From Leptolyngbya sp. CCY15150 (GTDB lineage Bacteria > Cyanobacteriota > Cyanobacteriia > RECH01), in assembly GCF_016888135.1 (NCBI RefSeq), contig NZ_JACSWB010000174.1, forward strand, positions 248,001-312,000: a DNA stretch of 64,000 nucleotides. Reading direction: 5' to 3'. Shown here one piece after another: positions 25,734 to 36,737 of this stretch (position 1 is its first letter; each line of letters starts with the position of its first letter). A model generated the notes under the pieces. It was not told the DNA's origin, made no database searches, and saw nothing but the letters and a program-made list of their open reading frames with translations. A program made the translations under genes and the position numbers.

Positions 25734-26279
25734 TTAAGAATCTTTCGCTGGCCCTAGGCTGGCTTGCTCTCGAAGAGTTGGAGCAGGCAAACTGGAGAGG
25801 GGGCGCGACGTCAACACCAGGCGCAGTTTGGCTTGAATCAGGTTCAGGTCAGCGAGACCTAGGTTCACATCCCCTTCCACGACAACACCGGTATGGAGCA
25901 GGCGATCGAGGAGTTCTAGGATCGATGGGTTGGCCGACGACTCACCGGGATAGTAGCTATTATCCTTGGGCAACAAGGTGCCAAATTCGCCCAGATCAAG
26001 GTTGAGGTCGGCGGGATCGACATCAAAGAAATCACACAGCTTCAGCACCTGTTCTTCCAGTTGACGGATGCTGTCGGCGGCCCGCTCTAGGTCGCGATCG
26101 CTCAATTCTCCAGCCTCCATGCGGCGGATCACCTGAGCTTCCATGAGCTGGCGCACCAGCTCAATGACCGTTAGCAAGAGCGGAGCCAGCCCGGCATCCG
26201 ATGAACTGCCCGACGAAAAGGACGGCTTGATGAGGAGTTCCTCAGGGGCAGGTTGAAACGGTAGATCTGAGGAAGTCAT
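25734..26279 (-). CDS. gvpK: Gas vesicle protein GvpK with GvpA-like C-terminal segment
   Basis: 181 residues. The GvpK core is GLAPLLLTVIELVRQLMEAQVIRRME followed by a helix and LCDFFDVDPADLNLDLGEFG. After it comes a segment of about 45 residues (PSILELLDRLLHTGVVVEGD, then VNLGLADLNLIQAKLRLVL) that lines up with GvpA: helix, DR-x-L-x-x-G-x-V-V, two strands and helix 2. GvpK is a regulatory or assembly factor of the shell. It starts 9 bp after the 55-aa ORF upstream. Confidence 0.93.
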   Translation of the reverse strand: MTSSDLPFQPAPEELLIKPSFSSGSSSDAGLAPLLLTVIELVRQLMEAQVIRRMEAGELSDRDLERAADSIRQLEEQVLKLCDFFDVDPADLNLDLGEFGTLLPKDNSYYPGESSANPSILELLDRLLHTGVVVEGDVNLGLADLNLIQAKLRLVLTSRPLSSLPAPTLREQASLGPAKDS

Positions 26280-26288
26280 GAACGCATG

Positions 26289-26456
26289 TTAGGTCTGACG
26301 GGATTGCTCGGTCTGACGGGATTGACTGGTCTGACGAGTAAAGTCTTGTTGATACTTTAGAAAGGCTGTATGCCATTCTCGAAAGCGACGTTCGCCATCA
26401 CGCACCAGCATTTGACGATAGTGCTCAGAATCAAGATAGGGTTTAGTTTGGCTCAT
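26289..26456 (-). CDS. 55-residue protein in the gas-vesicle operon
   Basis: Small basic, helical protein starting MSQTKPYLDSEHYRQM with RDGERRFREWHTAFLKYQQ. It ends in a six-residue tandem repeat (RQTSQS / RQTEQS / RQT) encoded by an 18-bp DNA repeat at about 26292-26340. AGGAG sits 8 nt before the ATG, giving good support for translation. It lies 9 bp from gvpK, between gvpJ and gvpK, where Microcystis has its gvpX gene; I cannot confirm homology. It could be an assembly or interaction factor (inference). Confidence 0.7.
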   Translation of the reverse strand: MSQTKPYLDSEHYRQMLVRDGERRFREWHTAFLKYQQDFTRQTSQSRQTEQSRQT

Positions 26457-26664
26457 GGTTGGGCTCCTACTCTAGGATAACGATTTTGGCATGAGAGTTG
26501 TATGTGCCAACGCGATCGCCTATGGGTTTCACTAGCGATCGCATCCAAGTGGTTAGATCCTACCCTGTCCATTCAACGCTAAACGATTATGCCGAGGATG
26601 CCTACCCCTTGGGTTGTAATTTGGGATCAAAATCTGGAGACAAACTACGGCATGTGCTACGGCG

Positions 26665-26853
26665 CTAGCGATCGATCCATTGGTGAATACGCCACTGGCG
26701 ATGCTGCTCGTGGGAGCGCTGGGCTCCTTGGGCGGCTTGAATACGGCCGCTATCGAGGGCAACCCACGATAGACGGCTGAGCGTTGAACTAGCGCGAAAA
26801 CTGGGAATAGCACGGCAGGTAGCAATCTGCCGCATGGATTTGACAGTAATCAA
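26665..26853 (-). CDS. Possible 62-residue protein in the gas-vesicle operon (TTG start)
   Basis: An Arg/Gln/His-rich frame between gvpJ and the 55-aa ORF. It starts at TTG with a strong GGAGG 8 nt upstream; an in-frame ATG follows at codon 7. Codon choice and amphipathic composition (RQIATCRAIPSFRASS at the start, HEQHRQWRIHQWIDR at the end) are gene-like, but no family is recognised. An opposite-strand frame (26589-26780) competes for the same DNA, so confidence is limited. Confidence 0.4.
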   Translation of the reverse strand: MITVKSMRQIATCRAIPSFRASSTLSRLSWVALDSGRIQAAQGAQRSHEQHRQWRIHQWIDR

Positions 26854-26938
26854 CGACCTATCCTCCGGGTCTGTAGGACAGCTAGATGAGAGATGGGGCT
26901 GATGGGATGAACAACGCTAGCTGGCTAGCCATCTGCCT

Positions 26939-27301
26939 CTAGTCTAACCGAGCATCAGATGTAGCTGGAGCCGCCTTGAGAGCTTTTAACTCGTTTTCCA
27001 AACCCTCCAGCCGCGCCTGTAGTTCTTGGTTGGTTTCCATGAGCTGACGGGCCTGGCCACTCAGGAAAGGATCGCTTTCCCACCAGTTGATGCCAATTTC
27101 ACGAGCTTTATCGACGGACGAAATCAGCAGGCGAATCCGAATGCTGAGGAGTTCAGTCGATCCAACGGAAACGGAGATATCGCCTGCAATCACGATGCCT
27201 TTATCCAACACCCGCTCTAAAACATCCGCTAAGGTTGATCCCTGAGTTGAGGTGGTAATCGTGCGCTGGGGGTTGGTAGTGCGTGCGGGGGTAGCGTTCA
27301 T
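26939..27301 (-). CDS. gvpJ: Gas vesicle protein GvpJ (GvpA-family minor shell protein)
   Basis: 120 residues. A GvpA-like core (STLADVLERVLDKGIVIAGD, then ISVSVGSTELLSIRIRLLI) is followed by NWWESDPFLSG and a coiled-coil-like helix (TNQELQARLEGLENELKAL). That extension distinguishes GvpJ from GvpA. GvpJ is a minor structural protein, thought to sit at the tips or help nucleation. It starts 20 bp after gvpN. Confidence 0.92.
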   Translation of the reverse strand: MNATPARTTNPQRTITTSTQGSTLADVLERVLDKGIVIAGDISVSVGSTELLSIRIRLLISSVDKAREIGINWWESDPFLSGQARQLMETNQELQARLEGLENELKALKAAPATSDARLD

Positions 27302-27321
27302 GGGGGGTCACGGGTAAGACA

Positions 27322-28749
27322 TCAAGACAAGTCAGTCAGGGGCAGTCTATCACGGGATAGATCGCTGAGGCGGTAGATCGACGTAGCGTCGCCGGTGCTC
27401 TGCTTGGCGAGAAAGCCCTTCGCTAGGAGCGATCGCAACGCATTCACCGACTGAACGCGATTGATACCCAAGGCCGCTTCTACATCCGACGGACGGGCCG
27501 CTTCTACCTCTTGGAAATAAGCATAGACATCTGCCACAAAGGGCGTTGGATCTGCGATCGCTGCTTGATCAACGGGTTCCTCGACCGCTAGGTCGCTGGA
27601 CAGATCGTCTAGGCTTGGAGACTTTGGGGGCAAGGGGTTCTCCGGCTGCGCCAGATCCTCTGCAATGGGCTGTTCTACCACATCTTCAACCACGGGGGTA
27701 GCAGGGGTGGGTACGGCGGACGATACGGGCTCATCCAAGACAGTAGGCTGGGCAGACTCAAACGGGTCGGCGATCGCGCTCGATTGGGCGATCGCGTCGG
27801 CTTCAGGGCGATCGCTAACGGGCGCTTGACCGGGAGCCCCAACCGGTATGGTGATCGTGGTATCGCCACAGATCAGGCTATTGAACACTTCCCATAGCGC
27901 TTGGGTGGCATCTGCTAGCGAACCATCCGTACGCGACAGCAGCATATCTTGACAGATATCGCGGAATTCTTCATTGGTTGTGATGACCTCAACCTCATGC
28001 TCAAAGCAAACTTTGGCAATCATCAAGCAGGGACGTAGTCCTGAAGAATTCACGGCTCCGGTGTTCGCGCGGAACGCCCGCACCAGTTTGACAATCAACG
28101 AAGCACTCAAGCGATCGATGCCGGTTTTATGGACAACAATTTCTTGCTGAGTTAGCTCATCGGGCTCGGGAATATTGATGGTGATCATCCGATCCAGAAG
28201 AGCATCCTGGGTGTCGTGTACCCCGCAATATTCCTCAGGGTTAGAGGTAAAGATGGCGCGGAAGTTAGGATCGACCCGAATATATTCCGTGCGGTTGCCG
28301 TTGGGCGGCAGCACCAAGAGCTTTTCTTCCAACGCCGACAGGAGAACGTTGTTCACCTCCGGGCGCGATCGGTTGAATTCGTCATACACCAGGGTGAAGC
28401 CTTCACGGCAGGCCAGGGTGAGGCGCGAATCAACCCAGTTGTGGCGCAGTTCGTCTTCCATCTTGACGACACTGTGGATAAAGTTATCCACCACTTTTTT
28501 GCGGGTGTAGCCAAGTTGGTTGCCAATCAGGTCAGAGGTTTTAAACTCATCATCCCCAAACAGCAGCATGATCGGACGGCTGATCAAATCTGCCAGATGT
28601 AGGGCAAGGGTGGTTTTACCGGTGCCGGCAGGGCCCCGTAGATGCACCGGATAGCCTGATTGTAGGTAGCGCAAGGCGCGGGTCGCGACACGCTCAATAG
28701 ATGGGGTTGAAACAAATCGCCGGGGCCGGGCTTGGAGAACAGTGGTCAC
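27322..28749 (-). CDS. gvpN: Gas vesicle ATPase GvpN with C-terminal winged-helix-like domain
   Basis: 475 residues, well above the usual 300-370. An AAA+ MoxR-type ATPase with Walker A GPAGTGKT (residues 39-46), Walker [10 protein letters not shown] and sensor [12 protein letters not shown]; it drives vesicle growth or assembly. After the AAA+ part comes an acidic, Pro/Val-rich linker (about 310-400). A final domain of about 70 residues (405-475) follows, with [20 protein letters not shown]. The same domain type is at the end of the neighbouring GvpC. It overlaps gvpC by 4 bp (ATGA), so translation is coupled. Confidence 0.92.
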
Positions 28750-29888
28750 AGGCTAGCTTCCTCTTGTACTAAATAGACGCGATCGCGCTGGGTGACAACG
28801 CCTTCTCGAATCAAAAGGCGAAGCGCATCGACAGCCTGAAAGCGGTTAATGCTGAGCTCTTCCTCAATTTCCGGTAGCCGCGCGCCGTGCCGCTGCCGAA
28901 TCAGAGCATAAATACTGCTGGCCAAGTCTTTGGGACTTGGGGCATCGGGAACGCTGGGAGGTAAAGGCTCTGCCACCGTTTCATCAAAGGGAGATACCTG
29001 AGCCGGTGGAGCATAGACGACAGGCGGGGTAGCGGGTGCCGGAGGAGCCTGCATGACCGGTGGCGGGCTGGGTGCGGCCGCTGGTACAGGCGCTGCTGGT
29101 GCAGGCGGTGCAGCGGGTGCAGCAGGCGGTGCTACGGGCGCAGCAGATCGGGTGAAAAATCTGGGTTGAGCGGCGGGTGCTGGCGCGGGTGCCGGTGCAG
29201 TAACTGGAGCAGGTGCCGAAGCAGCGCTACCCGTTCCCCACACCGATTGCCGAAGGTCAGCACAGTAAGCAGCTAGCTCGGTGCGGAAGGCGGCAAATTC
29301 ATGGAATAGCGCATCCACATCGGCGAGACGTAGCTCACGGCTGGTGTTGAGCATGGTCTGTACTGCCTGAGCGCGATCGCCCCGCAACACCTCCAGTTCT
29401 GCCAAGTAGCACTGCACATCCGACTGCAGCGCCGTTACATAGGCGGAAAGCTCTGCCCGCAGTTGTTCGCGGTTTAAGGCACGGCTCTGCTGCAAGGTTT
29501 CCAGCATCGCAGCAACGGTATTGCTCAGTTGGCCACGAAACTCCGACAGAAACCGTTTGAGTTCTTCGGCCTGCAAAAGACGATTGCTTGCAGTCTGAGA
29601 TAAAAATTCTGCCGTCTGCCGCTGCAGCGCTTGAGTAAAGTTATGTAGCTCTTGGAAAAGTCGCTGCGCTTGAAGCTGGCGCTGCTGACTGGCCTGGGCT
29701 AGAAACGTCTGGGTTTCTTGCTGAAGCTGAAGCTGGAAGAGACTGAGGTCTTGACGGAGTTGAGCCGCTTGGGTTTGGCGATCGCTTTGAAATGTATCCA
29801 GGGTTTGCCGAACATCTTGCCGCCGTTGGGCTAACTCTTGCTGACGTCTTTGCCGTAGCTCTAACCACGAATCTCGCAACGAATTCAT
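28746..29888 (-). CDS. gvpC: Gas vesicle outer protein GvpC, extended with linker and winged-helix-like domain
   Basis: 380 residues, about twice the classic Anabaena GvpC (193 aa). The N-terminal half holds at least four 33-residue helical repeats, e.g. starting [28 protein letters not shown] and [14 protein letters not shown], the form that clamps the ribbed GvpA shell. Residues about 220-300 are an almost pure Pro/Ala/Val linker. Residues about 318-380 form a winged-helix-like domain with [19 protein letters not shown], matching the end of GvpN. No signal peptide. It stiffens the vesicle; the extra domain is unexplained. Confidence 0.9.
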
Positions 29889-30079
29889 GGGATGATTCTC
29901 CTACAGGATGGGAAAGGATAGCTCAAACTAAAGTCAGAACTTACACTACTGAAACGTCATTTTTAAGCGAAAACCTGATTACTAAAATTAAATGTCATCC
30001 CGTGACATGGGGCAGAGCGAATCGCTGAAATGACAGACATGATGGGACAGCGCATAAGCCTCTGAGGCTAAAAAGAAGA

Positions 30080-30128
30080 TGAGGGGATGCCGATAGGAAA
30101 ACCAATGCATCCGTTGGGCAACCCCTCA
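30080..30128 (-). terminator. Stem-loop between gvpA and gvpC
   Basis: TGAGGGG (30080-30086) pairs with CCCCTCA (30122-30128), 42 bp downstream of gvpA. Cyanobacterial gvpA messages are made far in excess of gvpC, and an intergenic stem-loop that stops or protects transcripts is the usual explanation. No T-run follows, so RNA processing or protection is as likely as termination. The rest of 29889-30170 shows nothing recognisable. Confidence 0.5.
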
Positions 30129-30170
30129 GTCGTAAGTTAGGCTGTCCGATGGACGAACAGCGATTTAGAC

Positions 30171-30386
30171 CTATGCAGGTACAGCGGCTTGGGAGGTTAG
30201 ACCCACGGCTTCAGCGTACTTCAGGTAGGTTTCAACCGAAGCAATCACAACCCGGGCTTCAATTGCCAAGAGTTCAATACCGACCAAGGACACACGAACC
30301 CAAGCATCAATCACGATCCCTTTGTCGAGGATGCGGTCGATTACTTCAGCCAAGCTAGAGGAGGAGTTTACCTTTTCAACAGCCAT
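30171..30386 (-). CDS. gvpA: Major gas vesicle structural protein GvpA
   Basis: 71 residues, the canonical length. The sequence is near-identical to the cyanobacterial consensus: [20 protein letters not shown], then [20 protein letters not shown] and [11 protein letters not shown]. GvpA polymerises into the ribbed, gas-permeable, water-tight wall. AGGTGA precedes the ATG at normal distance. First gene of the operon; only one gvpA copy is in this window. A 9-bp inverted repeat lies in its leader. Confidence 0.99.
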
Positions 30387-35148: not shown

Positions 35149-36146
35149 GTAACACTCCATGAGCGAAGACTTAGCGGGGTTAATAAAAAATTATGTCTGA
35201 AGGAACATCAGGGGATAGAGCAAGTCTGACCTAGAATACTAGAACCTGAAAGCTTCCAGTCTTGAAGAGCTGACGACCTGCTTGTGTCGATATCTCCTGC
35301 CTAATACTCGAAAAGGATGCACCAACCAATGGAAATAAGATGAGTAAGACGATGGCTGTATATAGCACTACAGTAGCGCCTTATGATCCTATCTGGCAAG
35401 TAGCTTTACGGTAACTTTATGGTCACCTGAGCATAACAATTGCCGCTGAACTTGCATCATTATCCATAGAGTATCCTCTATAAATCAAGACGGCTGCCGA
35501 ATTGTGTTCCAACGACAGGATTAAAGCTGTGATCGTTGAATTATCTAAGTTGTGAGCATTTTACAAGGTATGGAATCACCTAGGTTGTGAGCATTGTGGG
35601 GGGCATTGACGATGTCCCACCCCAGTTCTAGATCTAGACGCTGCTAAGCAATGCGCTAGAAGTGCGCGCTCTGACTACCAAGCTAGCCATGGGGAAACTA
35701 CGGACGATAGGAAGAACCCAATGGGTCAACAGATAGTGTTGCTAAATCAGGGCAGCAACCTCTAGCTAGAAGCTCTGAAACTCCATGCGGCGTTGCTGAA
35801 TACAGGTATGAATTGCTCAATCTGCCCTCACCCTAGCCCTCTTCCTAGGATAAGGGAACAGGCGTTCTAACTCCCTTCTCCCTGGGGAGAAGGGTTGGGG
35901 ATGAGGGCAAATCATCTATCGATTCAGCAATGCCCTCCATGCAAAGTGTTCCGGAATCATACTGCTATTCAGCAAAGCCTTCCATCGTTTAACATCTATC
36001 CAGCTCAAGGTTCTGCCTGTAGCTCAACAGATAGCAACCTCAGCTCACTAGATCGATCCTTGACTCAGGATCTGGAATGGGGAAGGCGATCGCGTTAGTA
36101 TAGCAATCAACTCACCCCGTCACCCCCTTCCTGTCGCCTAGCTGCC
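35149..36146. other. Intergenic region with a MITE-like element
   Basis: About 1 kb between divergent genes. The left half shows no structure apart from a short direct repeat TA(A/G)GTTGTGAGCATT (about 35547 and 35582). The right half contains the inverted-repeat element at 35789-35934. The 67-codon frame at 35895-36098 starts inside that element and is judged spurious. Confidence 0.5.
35789..35934. mobile_element. MITE-like inverted-repeat element, 146 bp
   Basis: Ends are a 13-bp terminal inverted repeat with one mismatch: GGCGTTGCTGAAT (35789-35801) and ATTCAGCAATGCC (35922-35934). Inside, a second inverted repeat has outer arms TGCCCTCA / TGAGGGCA (35823-35830, 35902-35909), continued by imperfect pairing of the CCCT..CTTC and GAAGGGTTGGGG stretches. 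No coding capacity. The same end word occurs at about 2149 (AATCAGCAATGCC) and 43609 (CCTTGCTGAATGC), so the ends may be dispersed. Confidence 0.55.
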
Positions 36147-36737
36147 ATGTCTCCAGATTCACAGCTCAACCTGTCTCACCAATTGCAAAAACTGCGCCAG
36201 CAGCGCTATGCCGATCGCCAGGTTAGCAAAACGCGATCGCTGCAAATCCAAGCGTTGCTCCAGCGCCTCACAGATCATCTTGAACAGGATGTGTTCATTC
36301 AGCAGCAGACGGATCACGTGCGGCGATCGCTGCAGTGCGATCGGGTGGTGATCTACTACTTTTACTATGAATGGAAGGGGCAGGTGACCTTCGAGTCCTT
36401 GAGCCAGCCGATCTACTCCATCTATGGATCCACCGGAGCGGATGACTGCTTCAATGATGAGTATGCCCAACGCTACCTCGAAGGGCGCTATAGCTACATC
36501 TCCGACCTCGATACAGCTCCCATCCATCCCTGTCATCGAGACTTTTTGTCTAGCATTCAGGTCAAAGCCAGCCTAGTGATGCCAATTTTGCCAGAGCGGC
36601 CCGATCATAAGCGCCTGTGGGGGTTGCTGGCTGCCCACCACTGCGCAGAACCGCGTTGGTGGTCTACATCCGACATGGAAGCCATGCAGACCGCAGCCCA
36701 GGAGCTAGCCCAACGGTCATCCATCCAGAACCTGTGA
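36147..36737 (+). CDS. Stand-alone DXCF-type cyanobacteriochrome GAF protein
   Basis: 196 residues: one GAF domain (about 35-190) and no output domain. It carries both cysteine motifs of DXCF cyanobacteriochromes. The first is DDCF at residues 99-102 (Cys101). The second is the canonical bilin-binding Cys-His at 129-130 in HPCHRDFL, followed by QVKASLVMPI. The two cysteines are 28 residues apart, as Cys494 and Cys522 in TePixJ. LWGLLAAHHCAEPRWW completes the CBCR signature. It should bind a phycocyanobilin/phycoviolobilin chromophore and sense blue/green light (inference). No kinase, GGDEF or MCP module is fused; a partner is unknown. Divergent from the GT4 gene, downstream of a MITE-like element. 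Confidence 0.82.
   Translation: MSPDSQLNLSHQLQKLRQQRYADRQVSKTRSLQIQALLQRLTDHLEQDVFIQQQTDHVRRSLQCDRVVIYYFYYEWKGQVTFESLSQPIYSIYGSTGADDCFNDEYAQRYLEGRYSYISDLDTAPIHPCHRDFLSSIQVKASLVMPILPERPDHKRLWGLLAAHHCAEPRWWSTSDMEAMQTAAQELAQRSSIQNL

Follow-up and report, generated by a model that had tools for sequence, protein, structure and literature searches.

The window, a 64,000-nucleotide stretch of Leptolyngbya sp. CCY15150 DNA, carries a gene for a 196-residue protein which, judged from its sequence and those of its relatives, is a member of a dedicated lineage of stand-alone DXCF cyanobacteriochromes. This assignment is based on the single clade formed by the family, its invariant cysteines, the near-constant C-terminus and the short open reading frames found throughout. 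Cyanobacteriochromes have been studied almost wholly as sensor parts of bigger signalling proteins; the protein class is already known, and it is the always-solo habit that is the interesting part. The features of the locus are as follows.

36147..36737, forward strand: predicted solo GAF protein of the DXCF cyanobacteriochrome class, 196 aa (ORF, Pfam, PDB sequence matches, family profile and tree)
36147..36245, forward strand: N-terminal extension, residues 1-33, inside modelled helix 3-62 (AlphaFold2 model; conserved in the closest relative only)
36441..36452, forward strand: DDCF motif, residues 99-102, with C101 the presumed second cysteine forming the C10 adduct (motif positions, profile alignment and family alignment)
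36531..36536, forward strand: C129-H130, putative canonical bilin-attachment cysteine and histidine (motif positions, profile alignment and family alignment)
36615..36644, forward strand: LWGLLAAHHC, GAF core motif, residues 157-166 (motif positions and family alignment)
25809-30356, reverse strand: three gvpA-family (PF00741) gas vesicle genes, approximately 6-10 kb upstream of the solo gene (Pfam family match)

Gene, protein and photochemical class

The solo GAF gene lies on the forward strand with an ATG at 36147 and a stop codon at 36735-36737. A reverse-strand ORF at 36159-36536 (125 aa) was rejected as a gene and is taken to be a frame shadow, the conserved family being in the forward frame. 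GAF was the sole Pfam domain of the protein (residues 51-189, E=9.2e-17); no output domain was identified by Pfam in ORF 36147-36737, and the orthologue frames are too short for one. The best PDB sequence matches were cyanobacteriochromes. An AlphaFold2 model (mean pLDDT 77, with low confidence around residues 93-98 in the DXCF loop) gave a GAF fold and, at the N-terminus, one long helix spanning residues 3-62, and when this model was used in a Foldseek search cyanobacteriochromes ranked first with TePixJ among the best matches, the structural comparison that had been proposed in the preliminary description. Four cysteines are present in total, at positions 64, 101, 129 and 166; C101 and C129 are separated by 28 residues, and LWGLL (residues 157-161) is followed by H164 and C166. 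When the family profile was aligned with TePixJ (3vv4), C101 fell on the cysteine of its DPCF motif and C129 on its CH cysteine. The preliminary description had reported one GAF domain with DDCF at residues 99-102, C129-H130, this same spacing and LWGLLxxHxC in 196 residues, and every one of these details was confirmed. A four-residue insertion ahead of LWGLL (residues 151-154; 36597-36608) was observed only in the window protein and its nearest relative, L030.

The protein has a GAF domain of the phytochrome/cyanobacteriochrome type, a canonical cysteine followed by histidine (C129-H130 in 62/62 orthologues, aligned to TePixJ) and, 28 residues ahead of that cysteine, a further one within Asp-Xaa-Cys-Phe, all consistent with the DXCF class. 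Fusion to a kinase, GGDEF/EAL or chemotaxis output, the typical cyanobacteriochrome architecture, was not observed. The host genome encodes a ferredoxin-dependent bilin reductase (PF05996, E=2e-73), assigned to the family rather than to PcyA specifically, and through this reductase the host is classed as phycocyanobilin-capable. DXCF domains bind phycocyanobilin covalently, isomerise it to phycoviolobilin and have a blue-absorbing dark state with a reversible C10 adduct (PMC11284453), and their photoproducts include teal, yellow and orange besides green forms (PMC5240096). By analogy with its class, the window protein would bind phycoviolobilin and could have a blue/green, blue/teal or blue/orange colour pair. 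Caution on colour is advisable because of the acidic second DXCF position and the unusual GSTG stretch, and the colour pair may differ from that of the usual DXCF type.

Orthologues and genomic setting

At a threshold of E<=1e-40, which confines the survey, for fused and solo proteins alike, to close orthologues within the solo clade, the gene was found in 57 of 386 cyanobacterial genomes sampled across the phylum and in 32 of 143 genera. All 57 orthologues, without exception, are encoded by frames of 165-213 aa. The 62 orthologues collected for alignment and tree construction have ORFs of 162-196 residues, and in nearly all of these the C-terminus lies approximately 36 residues past LWGLL. 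In a tree that also included TePixJ, two further structures and 18 phytochrome-type GAF domains from the genome of the window, the 62 solo proteins formed a single clade with support of 100/100, the tree positions of some long rows outside this clade being uncertain. The absence of an output module claimed in the preliminary description is thus strengthened, as the whole family is stand-alone. Homologues lacking the two cysteines, which that description had named as evidence against its proposal, were not encountered, C101 and C129 both being present in 62/62.

Also invariant across all 62 are F102, H130, Y73, W76, G97, Y106 and A107, and W158 and H164 are likewise kept in 62/62. D99 is retained in 56/62 (S, E or N in the other six) and C166 in 59/62. 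Y73 and G97 differ from the residues found at these sites in the other DXCF domains compared, and at the second DXCF position the family mostly carries an acidic residue in place of the usual P. Family-specific motifs are YxFYxxW, GSTG and NDEYA, with the GSTG stretch before DXCF being unlike that of other DXCF domains. The N-terminal extension is poorly shared, and is kept only between the window protein and its closest relative. Comparison of the window gene with that relative (about 92-93% identical) gave 9/5/32 differences at the three codon positions, with dN 0.037, dS 0.267 and a dN/dS of about 0.14. The solo gene is evolving as coding sequence under purifying selection.

In Nostocales the solo gene often has ndhH on one side and a MidA-like methyltransferase gene on the other, both named by sequence recognition, and ndhH is directly upstream in 11 Nostocales loci. 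The order ndhH, solo GAF, MidA-like methyltransferase and dehydrogenase on one strand was observed in the Nostocales loci L084, L092, L105 and L109. A mitochondrial methyltransferase (MidA/NDUFAF7-like) modifies the NdhH homologue. An operon of the solo gene with ndhH and the MidA/NDUFAF7-like methyltransferase gene, an attractive reading in view of this modification, was considered and rejected since ndhH and midA adjoin without the GAF gene both in G233 and in the genome of the window itself (G000, C146). The flanking genes therefore provide no evidence of function, the solo gene simply lying between them in some genomes. Immediately upstream of the window ORF, nearly 1 kb (35161-36146) contains no convincing gene and has short direct and inverted repeats. 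It includes a palindromic intergenic repeat (35815-35913) with 40 whole or partial matches in the genome at 73-100% identity, and this repeat is probably a mobile or MITE-like element.

Since ndhH lies upstream in the 11 Nostocales loci and alr3355 of Anabaena sp. PCC 7120 is ndhH (PMC8147232, PMC12923008), Alr3356 of Anabaena/Nostoc sp. PCC 7120 is a probable orthologue of the window protein on the basis of gene order. PMC4788461 treats Alr3356 as a phytochrome-like cyanobacteriochrome whose GAF domain binds the chromophore and as a direct target of FurA, which binds its promoter, and cites the FEBS J study of Ma et al. 2012 for it. The photochemistry of an orthologue has probably already been measured. 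That FEBS J study reportedly covered seven GAF domains of the DXCF type from Anabaena sp. PCC 7120.

Mode of action and competing interpretations

The window protein is likely to be a single-domain DXCF photoreceptor, working in trans as a bilin photoswitch that absorbs blue light. The GAF domain would take up phycocyanobilin, become covalently linked to it via Cys129 and perhaps convert it into its isomer phycoviolobilin. In the dark Cys101 would add to C10, giving the blue-absorbing state, and blue light would isomerise C15=C16 with release of Cys101 and formation of a longer-wavelength state absorbing somewhere between teal and orange. A separate partner protein would then read the conformational change. 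Signalling in trans, if there is a signal at all, is suggested by the lack of an output domain together with the lack of a common neighbour, as no adjacent partner gene shared between lineages was found among the loci compared.

Some weight, although clearly the lesser, may be given to a role as sensor subunit that joins the cell's multi-GAF receptors in mixed dimers or bundles and tunes their light response, instead of signalling via its own partner. The genome encodes over a dozen further GAF domains of the phytochrome type, all in frames of 509-2168 aa (best match 41% identity), and the long N-terminal helix predicted by the model is consistent with this role. Phytochrome-type receptors dimerise through helices. 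Variation of the N-terminal extension across the family and the absence of a consistently adjoining kinase gene argue against it. It is rather improbable that the protein takes no part in signalling and serves instead as a pigment or bilin-handling protein, either a bilin store or a chromoprotein for photoprotection or light filtering. Such a role would fit the missing output domain, the bilin-binding residues being the best conserved, and the 3.9-fold rise in transcript of the probable orthologue alr3356 on furA switch-off, where it is listed together with nblA and pcyA (PMC4788461). For a mere store, however, the photoswitching second cysteine, invariant in 62/62, would be superfluous. Receptors of the cyanobacteriochrome class are normally scarce, which also speaks against a pigment role.

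A light and buoyancy sensor tied to gas vesicles, as suggested in the preliminary description, is highly improbable. The nearest gvpA-type gene is approximately 6 kb from the solo gene, and among the 386 genomes the two occur together in 29 against 8.3 expected. As a marker for filamentous lineages, hetR was found in 52 of the 57 solo-gene genomes, an association uncorrected for ancestry which may reflect descent alone. When hetR-bearing genomes only were considered, gvpA was present in 26/52 carriers of the solo gene and 13/28 others (p=0.82), and the raw association thus vanished; both genes are frequent in filamentous lineages. Moreover, gvpA is absent from 28/57 solo-gene genomes, and in complete genomes where coordinates were comparable the two genes lie hundreds of kilobases or more apart (for example in G022, G027, G064, G103 and G245). 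The upstream region of L030 is also unlike that of the window, synteny ending near 36048. Neither the conserved gvp linkage nor, within hetR-bearing genomes, the co-occurrence expected of a gas-vesicle regulator was therefore observed, and the proposed link with buoyancy is not upheld. The filamentous distribution directs tests to filament biology (motility, hormogonia and heterocysts) instead. Derivation of the window protein by decay of a larger receptor, which its one domain without output might suggest, can be discounted for practical purposes given the constant length, single clade, purifying selection and absence of a fused close relative among the 57 orthologues.

Beyond the free photoswitch signalling in trans, we tentatively suggest that the family could be a separate cyanobacteriochrome branch that is free in every known member and found almost only in filamentous hetR-bearing hosts, with an unlinked partner and a signalling surface of its own (YxFYxxW, GSTG and NDEYA). 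Its solo state would then be a lasting design and not the result of loss.

Comparison with known systems

No dedicated description of stand-alone cyanobacteriochromes was found among the open-access papers searched. NpF1000 was considered as a solo GAF example and rejected, being annotated as CikA (PMC12691664). A never-fused lineage conserved for photochemistry offers a simple system in which to learn how a free bilin photoswitch transmits its signal, and gives protein engineers a small natural photoswitch with two cysteines. The GAF domain of TePixJ (PDB 3vv4, 4glq), the prototype blue/green DXCF domain, resembles the window protein in both cysteines, the following histidine, the 28-residue spacing and the GAF fold. 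It differs in being part of a methyl-accepting chemotaxis protein and in having DPCF, whereas the window protein has DDCF, YxFYxxW and GSTG and no output domain. The best match in the PDB by both sequence and fold is NpR3784/miRFP670nano, which belongs to the red/green class and lacks the DXCF cysteine (aligned DRYF); miRFP670nano is an engineered fluorescent protein (PMC6336887). Single-domain response regulators provide an analogy only: they too consist of a regulatory domain without output that acts via partners, but their fold and chemistry are unrelated to those of the window protein.
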